The position numbers and the translations under genes were made by a program. Under the pieces are notes generated by a model. That model did no database searches. It saw only the letters and a program-made list of their open reading frames with translations, and was not told where the DNA came from. A stretch of DNA of 7,222 nt from Chloroflexota bacterium (lineage in GTDB: Bacteria; Chloroflexota; Anaerolineae; CG2-30-64-16): the NCBI GenBank assembly GCA_029555885.1, contig JAKPQT010000068.1, positions 1 through 7,222 on the forward strand, read 5' to 3'. Positions 1,132 through 5,192 of this stretch are shown piece by piece; positions within the stretch are counted from its first letter, which is position 1; the number at the start of each line of letters is the position of its first letter.

Positions 1132-1491
1132 TCACGAGCGCAGCTCGCGGAACTCGAACAACTCCGCCAACTCCGGCCGGCGTTCCACCGCGGCCCGGGC
1201 GAGCCGGGAGGTCAGGTTGTTGTTCAGCTTGAAGCCGCTGTCGTCCTGCGTCTGGACGGCGTACTCCCAGCGCAGGCGCTCAGCGATGGCCTTGGCGCCG
1301 AAGCGCTTGCGGCCGCGGCGCTGGACCTGCTCGGCGTAGTGGATGAAGGCGGTCAACACGTGCGGGTTGGCCGCCAGCCAGCGGGCGAAGTAGGCGTCCA
1401 GCGTCTCGTGCTCCTGCGCGCCGACGGGCACGATGGGCGCGAGAGGCGGATCAAACAGGGAGGGTTGTTCGGCAGGGTTGACGACGATCAC
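1132..1491 (-). CDS. Conserved phage-type protein of unknown function, 119 aa, GTG start
   Basis: The C-terminal half, RKRFGAKAIAERLRW (61-75), then FKLNNNLTSRLARAAV (87-102) and PELAELFEFRELRS (106-119), strongly resembles a small conserved family I remember from many phage and prophage genomes, always annotated as hypothetical: a basic F/Y-G-A-K-x-I-x-E-R-x-R-W segment, a K-x-N-N-N block and an F-x-x-R-x-L-R-S end. A DNA-binding or structural role is possible but not shown. The GTG at 1489-1491 overlaps the methyltransferase stop (GTGA) and has GGAGGT (1498-1503) six bases upstream, which decides the start. An earlier in-frame ATG at 1698 would read 69 residues of out-of-frame methyltransferase sequence and is rejected. 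Confidence 0.75.
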   Translation of the reverse strand: MIVVNPAEQPSLFDPPLAPIVPVGAQEHETLDAYFARWLAANPHVLTAFIHYAEQVQRRGRKRFGAKAIAERLRWEYAVQTQDDSGFKLNNNLTSRLARAAVERRPELAELFEFRELRS

Positions 1492-2894
1492 TTGACCACC
1501 TCCATGCAGATGACTTCCTCCCAATCGATGCGCGGGCTGCCGTTGCGCTCGGCCAGGCGCCGAAAGAAGCCTTTCCTCTCGACGGTACGGGTTTCCGGTG
1601 CGCCGAAGAGGGTGTGCTGGGTGCCGTGGTCCTCGACCTGCCAGGCCCGATGCACGTGCAGCGTGCGGAAGCCGGCCGCCTCGCAGAGCTGGCGCCACTG
1701 GTCGCAGAAGGGCACCCGCTGGCCATTGCGCACATAGTCCTTGACCACGAAAACGGCCACTCCACCAGGCCGTAAGACCTGGTGCACCTGATCGACGATC
1801 GCCCGGGAAGCCGACCAGAACGAATCGGCGGCCAGCCGGCCGATCTGCCCCTCCGCCAGGCCATAGCCTGCCGCAAAGGCTTGCGAAGAGGACCCTGCCG
1901 GCCTCCCGGTCAGCTTGCCGGGGTCAATCCCATTACGGTCATGGATGCTCTGCTCGTACGGCGGCGAGGAGACGGCGGCGTCGAAGTCGCCCGGCGGCAG
2001 GCCCTCCAACTGTCCCGGCGTGTTGCCATACTTCACGAAGGCGCCCGGCTCGCTCGGCTCAGTGCCCCGCTGCCCGTTGCGCCGGCCGTTGTGATCCTGC
2101 GACATGGGCAGGTTGTACGGCGGCGAGGAGACGGCCGCCTCGAACGACCCGGTGGGCATGTCGCCCAGTTGGCCGTCGGTCCGCGAGTATGTCCCCCGGA
2201 AGCAGCCGGGCCCTTGGTGCTGATTCTGGTCGCGCTCGCCTTTCGTGAAATCGCGCTTATCGTTGCCCGCATACGGCGGACTGCTGACCGCGGCGGCGAA
2301 ATCCCCCGCCGGCAGGTTGGCGAGATTCCCCGGCGTATCGCCGTAGCGGCCGCCCTGGGCCTTGCGCAGCGCCCAACCCTCAGCCCCGCGCACGTAGGAG
2401 CCATCCGCCATCCTGAGATGGGACGCCCCTTCATCGCCCTGGCCGTCGATGCGCGCGGCGGCGTAGGGCGGGCTGGAAATAAGCGCATCAACGGATGCGC
2501 CGGCGTCCGCAGCCGCCAGCACGGCAGCCAGGTTGCGGCTGTCACCCTGCACGATCCGGGCGCTACCCCAGCCGGGCAAGAGGCCCGCGTAGCGCGCCTG
2601 CCACAGGTCCAGGTTGGCCTGGGCCAGCGCCACGAACTTGGGCTCCAGCTCGCAGCCGGTCCAGTGGATGCCGGCCTGCATGAGCGGCAGGGCGATGGTC
2701 GCCACGCCGCCGAAGGGGTCCACACAAACGTCGCCGGCCTTGAGCCAGCCGTGGATCAGCAGGTGATCGACGATGCGGAAGGCCAGGCCGCGCGCCAGCT
2801 TGGCCGGGTGGCTGAACGCGTCCGGCACAAGGTCATTACGGGACCAGCCGTCGGCATACAGGCCGTGCCAGTCAGTAATGGGATAAGCGGTCAT
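1488..2894 (-). CDS. Amino-type (N6-adenine/N4-cytosine) DNA methyltransferase with four SSPPY motifs
   Basis: This 468-aa enzyme carries the SAM-binding motif VCVDPFGGVATIALPL (56-71) with a following acidic CELEP (81-85), and the catalytic motif S-S-P-P-Y. Motif IV appears four times: 140-144, 204-208, 256-260 and 309-313. The last three sit at the end of a 25-residue unit starting at Tyr184, Tyr236 and Tyr289 (Y-G-x-T-P-G-x-L, then LPxGDFxAAVSSPPY). A degenerate fifth unit begins at Tyr344 (YGLAEGQIGRLAADSFW) without SPPY. LRPGGVAVFVVKDYVRNGQ (374-392) completes the Rossmann core. Target base cannot be decided from the motif. The ATG (2892-2894) overlaps the cytosine methyltransferase stop, with GGAG upstream. 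It probably works with that enzyme in protecting phage DNA. Confidence 0.88.
   Translation of the reverse strand: MTAYPITDWHGLYADGWSRNDLVPDAFSHPAKLARGLAFRIVDHLLIHGWLKAGDVCVDPFGGVATIALPLMQAGIHWTGCELEPKFVALAQANLDLWQARYAGLLPGWGSARIVQGDSRNLAAVLAAADAGASVDALISSPPYAAARIDGQGDEGASHLRMADGSYVRGAEGWALRKAQGGRYGDTPGNLANLPAGDFAAAVSSPPYAGNDKRDFTKGERDQNQHQGPGCFRGTYSRTDGQLGDMPTGSFEAAVSSPPYNLPMSQDHNGRRNGQRGTEPSEPGAFVKYGNTPGQLEGLPPGDFDAAVSSPPYEQSIHDRNGIDPGKLTGRPAGSSSQAFAAGYGLAEGQIGRLAADSFWSASRAIVDQVHQVLRPGGVAVFVVKDYVRNGQRVPFCDQWRQLCEAAGFRTLHVHRAWQVEDHGTQHTLFGAPETRTVERKGFFRRLAERNGSPRIDWEEVICMEVVK
1498..1503 (-). promoter_or_regulatory. Ribosome binding site fixing the GTG start at 1491
   Basis: GGAGGT lies inside the last codons of the methyltransferase gene, six bases before a GTG that overlaps its stop codon. 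It is the reason for choosing this GTG over distant ATG codons. Confidence 0.7.
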
Positions 2895-4345
2895 TGGAGG
2901 GTCTCCACACAGCGTTGAAACAACATGCTCATAACTGGGGGTGTGACGGCATTCCCCAGCAGCCGCACCTGCTGGCGCTGGTTGCCCAGCAGGATGTAGT
3001 CCGACGGGAACGCCATCGCCGCCTTGATTTCGTGCGGCACAAGCATGCGGAAGCCACAGTCCTCGACGCGCGGCTCGTCACTCGCCTCAGGCACCACCAG
3101 CGCGTGCCGGTCCACCGTGGAAACTGTACCCATCGCCTCGGTCACGGGATGGACGGCGTCCCGCCCGTTGTAGTAGCTCGCCAGGAACGGCACGACCAGT
3201 GAGTGATGGTCCGTGGCCGTGATGGTGCCCAGCGGCTCAGTTACTAACCGCGCCCAACCCGGCGTATAGTTCGCCACGATGAACGGCGGCGGCACCACGA
3301 GGCCGTGATGCGGCTCTGACAGGATCGTACCGATTGGCTGCTCGACGGGTGTGTTGGTAATGCCGCCGTTGTAGAACTGGGTGATGAACGGCACCGCCAG
3401 CGCCAGCGTCTGGCGGGTCGTTTGCGTCGGCAGTGTGCCCGTGACCGGGTAGCCGTAGACTCGCCCGTCCTGGCTGTGATCGAGCGGTACCGTCACCGGC
3501 ACCCGTCCGAACTTACGCAGGCCGGCCTCGATGCGCCGCAGGGTGTTCGGCTTGAGCGGCTTCTGGCGGTTGCCGATGCGCTCCAGGGGCAGGCACCAGT
3601 CAATGGCCGTCCACGCCGGCGCAAACCGGGGTGTCACCGGCTGGGCACATTGCGGACAGCAGTAGACGTACTGGCGGCGCGCGCCGTACCGGCCCCACGG
3701 ATACGCGGGCCGCTTCCAGCTCTGCACCGCAGCCACCTGTTGCTGGCAGTGCGGGCAGAACGCCGTCGGCCGGAAGTCGAGGTCCGGCGCCCGGTTGCCC
3801 CGCTGCCAGAAGACGACATACATCCGGTCGCGCGACTGCGGCACCCCATCGGCGAACATCGAGTTGAAGTAGACGATGCGGTGCTCGTAATCCAGCAGGT
3901 GCATGGCGTGCAACCAGGCGTCGAACAGGCGCCACTTGCGGGCATCCACCACGTTCTCGACGATGATCACACGGTAGTTATGCCGCTCGGCGAACCGTGG
4001 CACATCCCACATCGTCGCCCGGCTGCGCTCGGCGGCCGGGTCGATGGGGCTGTCGTCGAAGAGCCGGGCCTGCTGGACGCGCTCCACGCCCTTCGACAGG
4101 CTGTGATTCGTGCATTCCGGCGAGGTGATCAGGATGTCGGTCGCCTGGTAGCGCCGCGGGTCACAGGCGGAGATGTCCACGCAGTCATGCGCCGCGTTGG
4201 GGAAGTTCGAGTTGTGCGTGTCGACGGCCAGGCGCCAGTGGTTCAGGGCCAGCCGCAGCTCAGCGCCTGCCTGGACGACACCGATCGACGAGCCGCCGGC
4301 GCCGCAGAACTGGTCCGTTACGGTGATGGAGGTAGACGGTATCAT
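2891..4345 (-). CDS. DNA (cytosine-5-)-methyltransferase
   Basis: This 484-aa enzyme transfers a methyl group from S-adenosylmethionine to C5 of cytosine. Visible motifs: I, DQFCGAGGSS (11-20); IV, ITSPECTNHS (73-82) with catalytic Cys78; VI, ENV (130-132); VIII, QSRDRMYVVF (170-179); IX-like, RMLVPHE (433-439); X, LLGNAVTPP (462-470). Motif IV is S-P-E-C rather than the classical P-C, a variant I recall from phage enzymes. Between VIII and IX lie a probable zinc ribbon (C197-x2-C200 ... C230-x2-C233) and a region of about four repeats of the type V-x-E-P-L-G-T-I-x-x-x-D-H-H-x-L-V-V-P-F (about 300-420), presumably part of target recognition. The ATG at 4343-4345 overlaps the previous stop (ATGA). 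An upstream 52-residue extension is out-of-frame reading of the neighbour. No restriction partner is visible. Confidence 0.92.
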   Translation of the reverse strand: MIPSTSITVTDQFCGAGGSSIGVVQAGAELRLALNHWRLAVDTHNSNFPNAAHDCVDISACDPRRYQATDILITSPECTNHSLSKGVERVQQARLFDDSPIDPAAERSRATMWDVPRFAERHNYRVIIVENVVDARKWRLFDAWLHAMHLLDYEHRIVYFNSMFADGVPQSRDRMYVVFWQRGNRAPDLDFRPTAFCPHCQQQVAAVQSWKRPAYPWGRYGARRQYVYCCPQCAQPVTPRFAPAWTAIDWCLPLERIGNRQKPLKPNTLRRIEAGLRKFGRVPVTVPLDHSQDGRVYGYPVTGTLPTQTTRQTLALAVPFITQFYNGGITNTPVEQPIGTILSEPHHGLVVPPPFIVANYTPGWARLVTEPLGTITATDHHSLVVPFLASYYNGRDAVHPVTEAMGTVSTVDRHALVVPEASDEPRVEDCGFRMLVPHEIKAAMAFPSDYILLGNQRQQVRLLGNAVTPPVMSMLFQRCVETLQ

Positions 4346-4788
4346 GCTGATTGCTCCAGCCAGGCTTTCATCTGGCCGCCGCGCTCTCCGATGCCGCCGT
4401 GCGCCTCCACGACGGCCACCCCGTGCCGGCTGCACCAGGCGCCGAAGCCGTCCAGCGCCGGGGCATAGCTCCGGCCGAGGTTGACGAACGCCCGCTGGCA
4501 CTCGGGATGCCGCAGCAGCCAGCGCAGCAGCTCGCTGCTGACCTCCGGGGCGAGCGCGCGGGCCCGCTCAGCCGTCATGCGCCGGTCGTAGTCGGCGATC
4601 ATACGATCCTCGTCGATCAGGCCATGCTCGGCCGAGAGGATGAAGACCTGGGTGGCCACCAGGTGCCCGGCTTTTCTGGCGCGGCGCAGCACCCGGAATG
4701 CCGGCCCGTCATAGCGCTCGATGGCCGGCAGCTTGCCGGGATCGGGGCGCTTCGTCTCCGAACAGCCGATGATGAGTAAGCGGTTCAT
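4342..4788 (-). CDS. DUF6884 / YaaA-like protein, 148 aa
   Basis: Conserved blocks are IIGCSETKR (6-14), PAIERYDGPAFRVLR (21-35), FILSAEHGLI (49-58), IADYDRRM (64-71) and a C-terminal GGIGERGGQMKAWL (131-144). The C-S-x-T-K-R, I-L-S-A-x-x-G-L-I and Y-D blocks are the pattern I associate with DUF6884 and related YaaA-like proteins, which occur widely in phages and mobile elements, sometimes near nucleic-acid modification genes. The biochemical activity is not established. The ATG at 4786-4788 overlaps the preceding stop and has GGAG about 9 nt upstream; a 16-residue upstream extension would only re-read the previous gene. Its TGA overlaps the ATG of the cytosine methyltransferase, so the two are likely translationally coupled. 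Confidence 0.65.
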   Translation of the reverse strand: MNRLLIIGCSETKRPDPGKLPAIERYDGPAFRVLRRARKAGHLVATQVFILSAEHGLIDEDRMIADYDRRMTAERARALAPEVSSELLRWLLRHPECQRAFVNLGRSYAPALDGFGAWCSRHGVAVVEAHGGIGERGGQMKAWLEQSA

Positions 4789-5192
4789 CGTGGCGTCTCC
4801 AGCGCAGCCAGCGCCCGGTCCGCGATGTGCCCCATCCATTGCCAGAGCCGGCGCTCTTCACGCGGCGCGCCCAGCGGCGTGCCCGTCATCGTGTGGGCGC
4901 GCTGAGCGATCTGTTCGAGTGCCGCGCGCAGTTGGGCGGTTTCGGCTGCGGCAGCGCACCGTCCGGCACAGGCAGATGCGCGGGCTTCCGGGGCATCCGC
5001 GCGTGCCGTCCCGGCGGCGTAGCCGGCGGCCCAGATACGGGTGCGATAGTCCTCCTGGATGAGGGCCGCGCGTTGGGTGTCGCTGAGGCGCTGCCATTCG
5101 GCGAGTACCTCGGCGTTGTAGGCGACCAGCTCCGCCAGCTTGACGAAAGGATAGCCGCTCATCAGGCGGCGGAAAGTTGCTTTGTTAGCCAT
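4785..5192 (-). CDS. Hypothetical phage protein, 135 aa
   Basis: The ATG (5190-5192) is preceded by a strong GAGGAG site 14 nt after the previous stop, and the TGA overlaps the next ATG (ATGA, 4785-4788). The protein is mostly helical in character. Residues 1-60 contain MANKATFRRLMSGYPFVKLAELVAYNAEVLAEWQRLSDTQ (stretches at 1-20 and 21-40), followed by an Ala-rich helix and a region with two Cys (74 and 78). A C-terminal part with ERRLWQWMGHIADRALAALE follows. No catalytic motif, signal peptide or membrane segment is visible. I do not recognise the family. Its position suggests an accessory gene of the replication/modification operon. Confidence 0.7.
   Translation of the reverse strand: MANKATFRRLMSGYPFVKLAELVAYNAEVLAEWQRLSDTQRAALIQEDYRTRIWAAGYAAGTARADAPEARASACAGRCAAAAETAQLRAALEQIAQRAHTMTGTPLGAPREERRLWQWMGHIADRALAALETPR

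Follow-up and report, generated by a model that had tools for sequence, protein, structure and literature searches.

We describe a viral-type methyltransferase in which the catalytic motif is repeated together with a variable loop. It is encoded by an open reading frame (1488..2894; 468 amino acids plus stop) in a 7,222-nucleotide stretch of contig JAKPQT010000068.1, hereafter called the window; the gene and all parts of it given below lie on the reverse strand (-). We consider it, with a probability of roughly 0.55, to be a multispecific amino-methyltransferase of uncultivated phages, in which one S-adenosylmethionine (SAM) core serves several catalytic and recognition cassettes, probably for modification of the virus's own DNA. 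The cassette methyltransferase family is common in metagenomes. A cassette consists of a strand (e.g. FDAAV), the motif SPP[Y/F/W], a variable loop with a median length of 33 residues and a linker, YGxTxGQLGxM. The cassettes are repeated within one protein, their loops fall into recurring types under selection, and some of them stand behind the C terminus of a complete enzyme domain.

The window protein carries SSPPY at residues 140, 204, 256 and 309, exactly as an earlier note on this DNA had reported. Also as described there, three 25-residue units (184-208, 236-260 and 289-313) share 15, 16 and 19 of 25 residues in pairwise comparison. Among 20,000 shuffles of the protein, 66 contained one SPPY and none contained two. 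The serine codons of SSPPY vary over the four copies (TCC, AGC, TCG, AGT), and copies 3 and 4 share codons because they lie in the 21-bp identity between 1956-1976 and 2115-2135, which we could read from the sequence. Cassette 1 (residues 135-183; 2346..2492) comprises the strand VDALIS, SSPPY at 2463-2477 and a loop beginning with AAARIDGQGDEGASHLRM; its strand (135-140) is present in the AlphaFold2 (AF2) model within a block of mean predicted local distance difference test (pLDDT) score 67. Cassette 2 (residues 184-235; 2190..2345) comprises linker and strand, SSPPY at 2271-2285 and the loop AGNDKRDFTKGERDQ...GPGCFRG. Cassette 3 (residues 236-288; 2031..2189) has SSPPY at 2115-2129 and the loop NLPMSQDHNGRRNGQRGTEPSEPGAFVK, and cassette 4, the last one (residues 289-343; 1866..2030), has SSPPY at 1956-1970 followed by Glu and a loop starting with EQSIHDRNGIDPGKLTGRP. 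The array ends with YGLAEGQIGRLAADSFWSASRAIVDQ (1776..1865), a homologue-conserved linker and helix (359-373 in the model) rejoining the core. The earlier note had seen a degenerate fifth unit at Tyr344 in this place. This stretch, identical to each of the other units at 7 of 25 positions, instead marks the return of the array to the enzyme core: the linker also forms the start of the helix that follows the last copy (YGxxxGQLGNxxGxTFWxAxR), and since the same YGxxxGQLGNxxGxTFWxAxRxIV closes the array in the homologue consensus, it is not a decayed repeat.

The core itself is that of an amino-methyltransferase. The protein matched PF01555 in Pfam with 41.7 bits against a cut-off of 26.7, the alignment being limited to the C-terminal part of the profile (positions 160-220 of 221) and to residues 27-92 of the protein (2619..2816), the part with motif X and SAM-binding motif I. 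Within this part DPFGG (SAM motif I; residue 59, 2706-2720) occurs just once, which bears out the single SAM site noticed before. DPFGG, SSPPY as a motif IV of the form [DNS]PP[YFW], and an AF2 core that agrees with class-I methyltransferase folds together make up the features expected of a PF01555 enzyme. Motifs X, I and IV follow each other in this order, and the second half, with its helix and strands, comes after them. This C-terminal half of the core (residues 374-468; 1491..1775), which ends with RKGFFRRLAERNGSPRIDWEEVICMEVVK, reached pLDDT block means of 81-97 and is supported by the homologue consensus ERKSFFRRLAEKKGSPRID. Beyond PF01555, Pfam yielded just a sub-threshold PEGA match (E-value 0.01); a THUMP domain was not found in the 468-residue protein in Pfam at an E-value of 0.01, and we saw no separate recognition domain after the core. 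In the PDB the protein is related by sequence to DNA methyltransferases, namely TTHA0409 (E-value 3e-4) and CcrM (E-value 0.03).

Multiple copies are a property of the family. We analysed the best 120 of 1707 matches from a first search, the window protein among them; this list is biased to the query, as scoring was restricted to the 7998 candidates that had the most words in common with it. Copies of [SND]PP[YFW] ranged from two to nine (two in 1 protein, three in 23, four in 39, five in 31, six in 16, seven in 6, eight in 3 and nine in 1), and protein length followed 241 amino acids plus 61 per copy (r = 0.91). A second search started from L051, a natural one-cassette member of 281 amino acids, with candidates restricted to about 492 amino acids. 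Its best 120 of 809 matches included 113 new proteins, or 105 after removal of eight duplicates, of which 13 had one copy, 21 two, 49 three and 22 four, with 54 amino acids added per copy. Thus, 92 of these 105 further proteins carry two to four copies. The contig that encodes L051, IMGVR_UViG_2721755344_000002, also encodes a member with two cassettes (L052).

Scanning with the core gave 69 loci in viral contigs and 48 in 84,980 species genomes, where four were clear members, all of them metagenome-assembled. We excluded L063, which is without the motif, 11 weak loci (L064-L074) among the 69 and 44 distant ones among the 48, and kept the contig-edge fragments L050, L054, L057 and L058 in the counts. 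When 14 distant relatives were read, one from a viral contig (L067, a weak locus) and 13 from the 44 excluded genome loci, 12 of them had one TSPPY and one loop. The window protein and L041 had no match at an E-value of 1e-5 in 50,697 phage records, of which 318 were matched by the neighbouring C5 methyltransferase used as a control; the family is therefore easily missed. A plasmid search likewise gave no match. In some cores (L077 with HGCNCAG...CPEC, L018 and L003) motifs II and III are separated by a Cys/His-rich insert, which is perhaps a zinc-binding module.

The motif is almost always retained. A linker-anchored search that did not require SPP found 571 anchors. With 410 of them it arrived at an unaltered SPP[YFW] and with 99 at the helix, which left 62. 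By reading, about 24 of these 62 were cassettes with an altered motif (SSPLY, SSPSY, SSMPF, etc.), and the remaining ones matched the core or lay at the ends of arrays or contigs. The motif is kept in about 94% of the cassettes of the first set (about 410 of 434). For the loops we used 178 proteins, that is 183 minus four near-duplicates and one without a usable loop. Their 732 cassettes formed 254 groups, and 65 groups with at least three members contained 505 cassettes. With shuffled loop interiors, just 2-5 groups of this size containing 7-16 cassettes were obtained. Moreover, 182 of 284 new cassettes in the second set belonged to types found previously. The four loop types of the window protein occur, in order, in 20, 4, 52 and 16 proteins of the first set. 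Types are bound neither to a position nor to a core: 50 of the 65 were found in more than one position class, excluding the 124 of 732 cassettes for which the class is missing, and divergent cores have types in common, as in L003 and P0117 with 90% loop and 42% core identity. Of 2965 same-type pairs, 1237 had loops whose identity was more than 15 points above that of the cores. The Chao1 estimate, based on 194 cassettes of core-pattern loci, is about 346 loop types. The loop type of cassette 3, the sole type sought among characterised or cellular single-copy enzymes, was not found in plasmids or phage records, and the PDB gave nothing beyond one chance match (E-value 0.88). A loose first look at genomes, made without a positive control, found it in none of 5 genomes, in none of 398 from one phylum and in 1 of 400 from another; we took the single match (L123) as chance, as the listed open reading frames were without a methyltransferase. 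These negatives carry little weight.

No protein was found to carry the same type twice at clustering limits of 0.60, 0.65 and 0.70. At 0.65 label shuffling of the first set predicted 19.1 +- 3.6 repeats, and at the loosest limit of 0.75 three within-protein pairs were seen against 24.5 expected. Since the first set had been chosen by likeness to the query, type frequencies were recomputed from core-pattern loci only, which gave 21.3 expected repeats and none seen. The second set had none against 4.0 +- 1.8 expected, with 1.5% of the shuffles equally low, and both sets together (283 proteins) had none against 16.5 +- 3.9 at the chosen limit. On their own, the core-pattern loci showed no significant deficit, with two look-alike pairs (L018 cassette 5/6 with 6/6; L031 1/3 with 2/3) against 2.5 +- 1.6 expected. 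At a similarity limit of 0.25 the first-search set contained eight look-alike pairs within proteins compared with 30.3 expected. Neighbouring cassettes are no closer to each other (likeness 0.128) than random pairs (0.134); therefore, array growth by simple local doubling has left no trace that still shows.

Cassettes are maintained at the protein level. Over all 144 same-type loop pairs with coding DNA, residues were 65% identical and fourfold sites 31%, compared with a baseline of 28% for fourfold sites of unrelated codons of the same proteins. The 108 closer pairs, SPPx residues included, reached 72% and 34%, respectively. Residues are conserved while silent sites are near saturation, which argues for protein-level selection on the cassettes and not for recent copying. 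Besides, in 44 of 56 proteins the serine of SPP is written with codons of both classes, TCN and AGY, and 475 of 505 cassettes have the aromatic residue of SPP[YFW] that goes with their loop type, versus 71% by shuffle. From the silent sites, the serine codons and the aromatic residue we conclude that motif and loop go together and are kept by selection.

Position leaves its own mark. Within the same types, and among cassettes with a position class, Glu follows SPPx in 67 of 88 last cassettes and in 12 of 167 others (z 8.6). Use of another anchor gave 62 of 90 last and 10 of 154 middle cassettes, and the second set gave 17 of 23 last and 3 of 59 other cassettes (z 5.0). As Glu marks the last position whatever the loop type, the last cassette lies in a distinct surrounding. 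AF2 docked just the first cassette in both proteins modelled. As to whether catalysis falls to the first copy, as had been suggested, the evidence points both ways: AlphaFold docks this copy, whereas the Glu beside the motif singles out the last one. Nine proteins carry one to three cassettes after a complete enzyme domain (L002, L003, L011, L018, L046, L062, P0072, P0101 and P0161); L062 was added by reading and P0161 after a later check, while L056, called by the script, was dropped on reading. The frame stops after a partial linker in the six such proteins with coding DNA. These cassettes are outside the chain order helix-strand-motif-helix and, if working, must therefore dock from a tether.

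These observations suggest that one enzyme is able to mark several different targets. Each cassette would bring its own version of core strand 4, a separate catalytic motif IV (SPP[Y/F/W]) and a loop, some 33 residues long, for one target. The shared SAM core would hold one strand at a time, so that cassettes compete and alternate, either during protein folding or through exchange of strands. Docking in this manner would also be open to cassettes tethered behind the C terminus, and each docked copy would be catalytic in its turn. In this protein, no large part varies except the loop behind motif IV. If this loop reads the target, specificity can be added only by repeating motif IV, since the loop emerges straight out of the catalytic motif. 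A target-reading loop would explain the repeated motif, the many but conserved loops, the lack of a type present twice and the copies behind the domain. The more specific idea of interchangeable catalytic strands, with one cassette docked per molecule even from behind the C terminus, is put forward tentatively and at somewhat less than even odds. One gene would then yield mixed specificities by alternative folding or strand exchange and draw on a few hundred loop types circulating among uncultivated viruses. The substrate is perhaps the N4 of cytosine in DNA, as we take SPPY to be a mark of cytosine-N4 DNA methyltransferases. If this reading is true, phages could counter several restriction systems with one gene that writes several methylation motifs. 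Copying the catalytic motif along with its recognition loop would be a route to broad self-protection that differs from the one taken by the multispecific C5 enzymes. Nature would then also offer an example of a Rossmann fold whose core strands can be exchanged. The loop types would form a code in which a short loop stands for a DNA sequence, and methylomes of these viruses could serve to read it.

Other explanations have to be weighed against the same data. The enzyme might be multispecific with a fixed catalytic motif, the first or last cassette being permanently docked and the other loops recognising DNA out of the flexible array, with an SPPx that only anchors or stacks them. The docking of the first cassette in both AF2 models is consistent with this, as is the Glu at the last cassette, which points to a structural role of that position. 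However, such loops would not need the intact SPP[YFW] that about 410 of 434 keep, nor would the aromatic residue be expected to track the loop type, and the cassettes behind the whole domain in nine proteins are also at odds with it; we regard this arrangement as unlikely. It is improbable that the target is not DNA, i.e. that several RNA or protein sites are methylated or that the loops bind host proteins with the enzyme as a scaffold. Pfam gave no THUMP RNA-binding domain, the PDB sequence relatives TTHA0409 and CcrM are DNA methyltransferases, and the gene adjoins a C5 DNA methyltransferase gene with a four-base overlap.

The earlier note had considered the repeats as decoys, as modules for substrate binding, as a ladder for target recognition or as a source of recombination variants. 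Our data favour target-recognition modules that each keep the catalytic motif and speak against inert decoys, because types recur, none occurs twice in a protein at the chosen limit, and silent sites are near saturation. A recombination reservoir, with one working cassette and stored variants swapped at conserved linker DNA, seems very improbable to us. The occurrence of 50 of 65 types at more than one position class, the same types in very different cores and the 21-bp identity between two window copies would fit swapping. Nevertheless, same-type loops combine conserved residues with near-saturated silent sites; for example, the C-terminal cassette 5 of L003 and cassette 1 of L008 share 32 of 35 residues and 4 of 17 fourfold sites. 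Furthermore, C-terminal cassettes are in frame up to the stop codon, and neighbouring cassettes are no more similar than random pairs. We rejected an assembly artefact or neutral tandem duplication, to which we give practically no chance. The 21-bp repeat is the only observation in its favour, against many distinct contigs from several collections, recurring loop types and residues conserved despite near-saturated silent sites. The homologue copy counts likewise contradict the assumption, raised as a possible refutation, that homologues are single-copy and the array arose in assembly.

The neighbouring genes include a C5-cytosine methyltransferase (2891-4351, -; PF00145 in Pfam) as well as two proteins assigned by PHROGs, a replication initiation protein and a DnaC-like helicase loader. 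With these neighbours, the region looks like an early phage region. The start of the cassette methyltransferase shares four bases (ATGA, 2891-2894) with the stop of the C5 gene. Its stop overlaps the GTG of the next frame by four bases (1488-1491), if this GTG is the start, and this downstream frame matches phrog_13625. The C5 methyltransferase has internal repeats of about 34 residues, with LVVP-like motifs at residues 317, 351, 385 and 418 and the pattern ...HHxLVVPF..YYNG...V.EPxGTI. Upstream of both methyltransferases lies a DUF6884 protein (4342-4839, -; PF21818, 46.9 bits), and the contig edge (7147-7222) carries 6.3 copies of the 12-bp tandem repeat GCGGCCCCGGCA.

Several known enzymes resemble parts of the window protein. 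Its motif X/I stretch is similar to that of TTHA0409 (2zie; E-value 3e-4), and the same alignment shows TSPPYW and, after motif IV, PGQLGHI, pieces which alone score near zero. In 2zie and CcrM the matching stretch comes after motif IV, whereas the order here is X-I-IV. Compared with single-copy PF01555 enzymes, the family has one to nine copies of motif IV and no recognition domain seen after the core. The distant single-copy methyltransferases (L080, L083, L091, L094 and others) share the motif order, with one TSPPY and, after the loop, YSxxxxDLGN or similar, but have one loop only. The window protein has the catalytic-domain fold of Trm11/Trm14. However, the tRNA guanine-N2 methyltransferases Trm11, Trm14 and TrmN differ by their THUMP domain, which was not found here in Pfam, and by DPPY or NPPY as their motif in place of SPP; we know of no cassette array in these enzymes.

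The closest parallel is offered by multispecific C5 phage enzymes, in which separate recognition domains are arranged around a single catalytic motif. Bacillus phage C5 methyltransferases (SPR, phi3T, rho11, SPbeta, H2; phiBssHII) carry tandem recognition modules in one polypeptide, and one such multispecific gene allows Bacillus phages to withstand several restriction systems (PMC12707154, PMC8936443). The likeness consists in a phage enzyme with several tandem recognition modules per polypeptide, and the recognition domains of phiBssHII, located at separate places, resemble the C-terminal cassettes described here. The C5-cytosine methylase domain is absent from our protein, as PF00145 matches only the neighbour at 2891-4351 in Pfam. 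A literature search, which left most subscription papers outside and was judged by titles and abstract openings, gave no description of a repeated motif IV or of such a multispecific amino-methyltransferase. In contrast to the C5 enzymes, the cassette protein is an amino-methyltransferase by its SPPY, and its modules do not share a single catalytic motif, since each of the four in the window carries its own SSPPY. Compared with the known multispecific phage methyltransferases, it is the repetition of the catalytic motif together with the recognition module that sets it apart.
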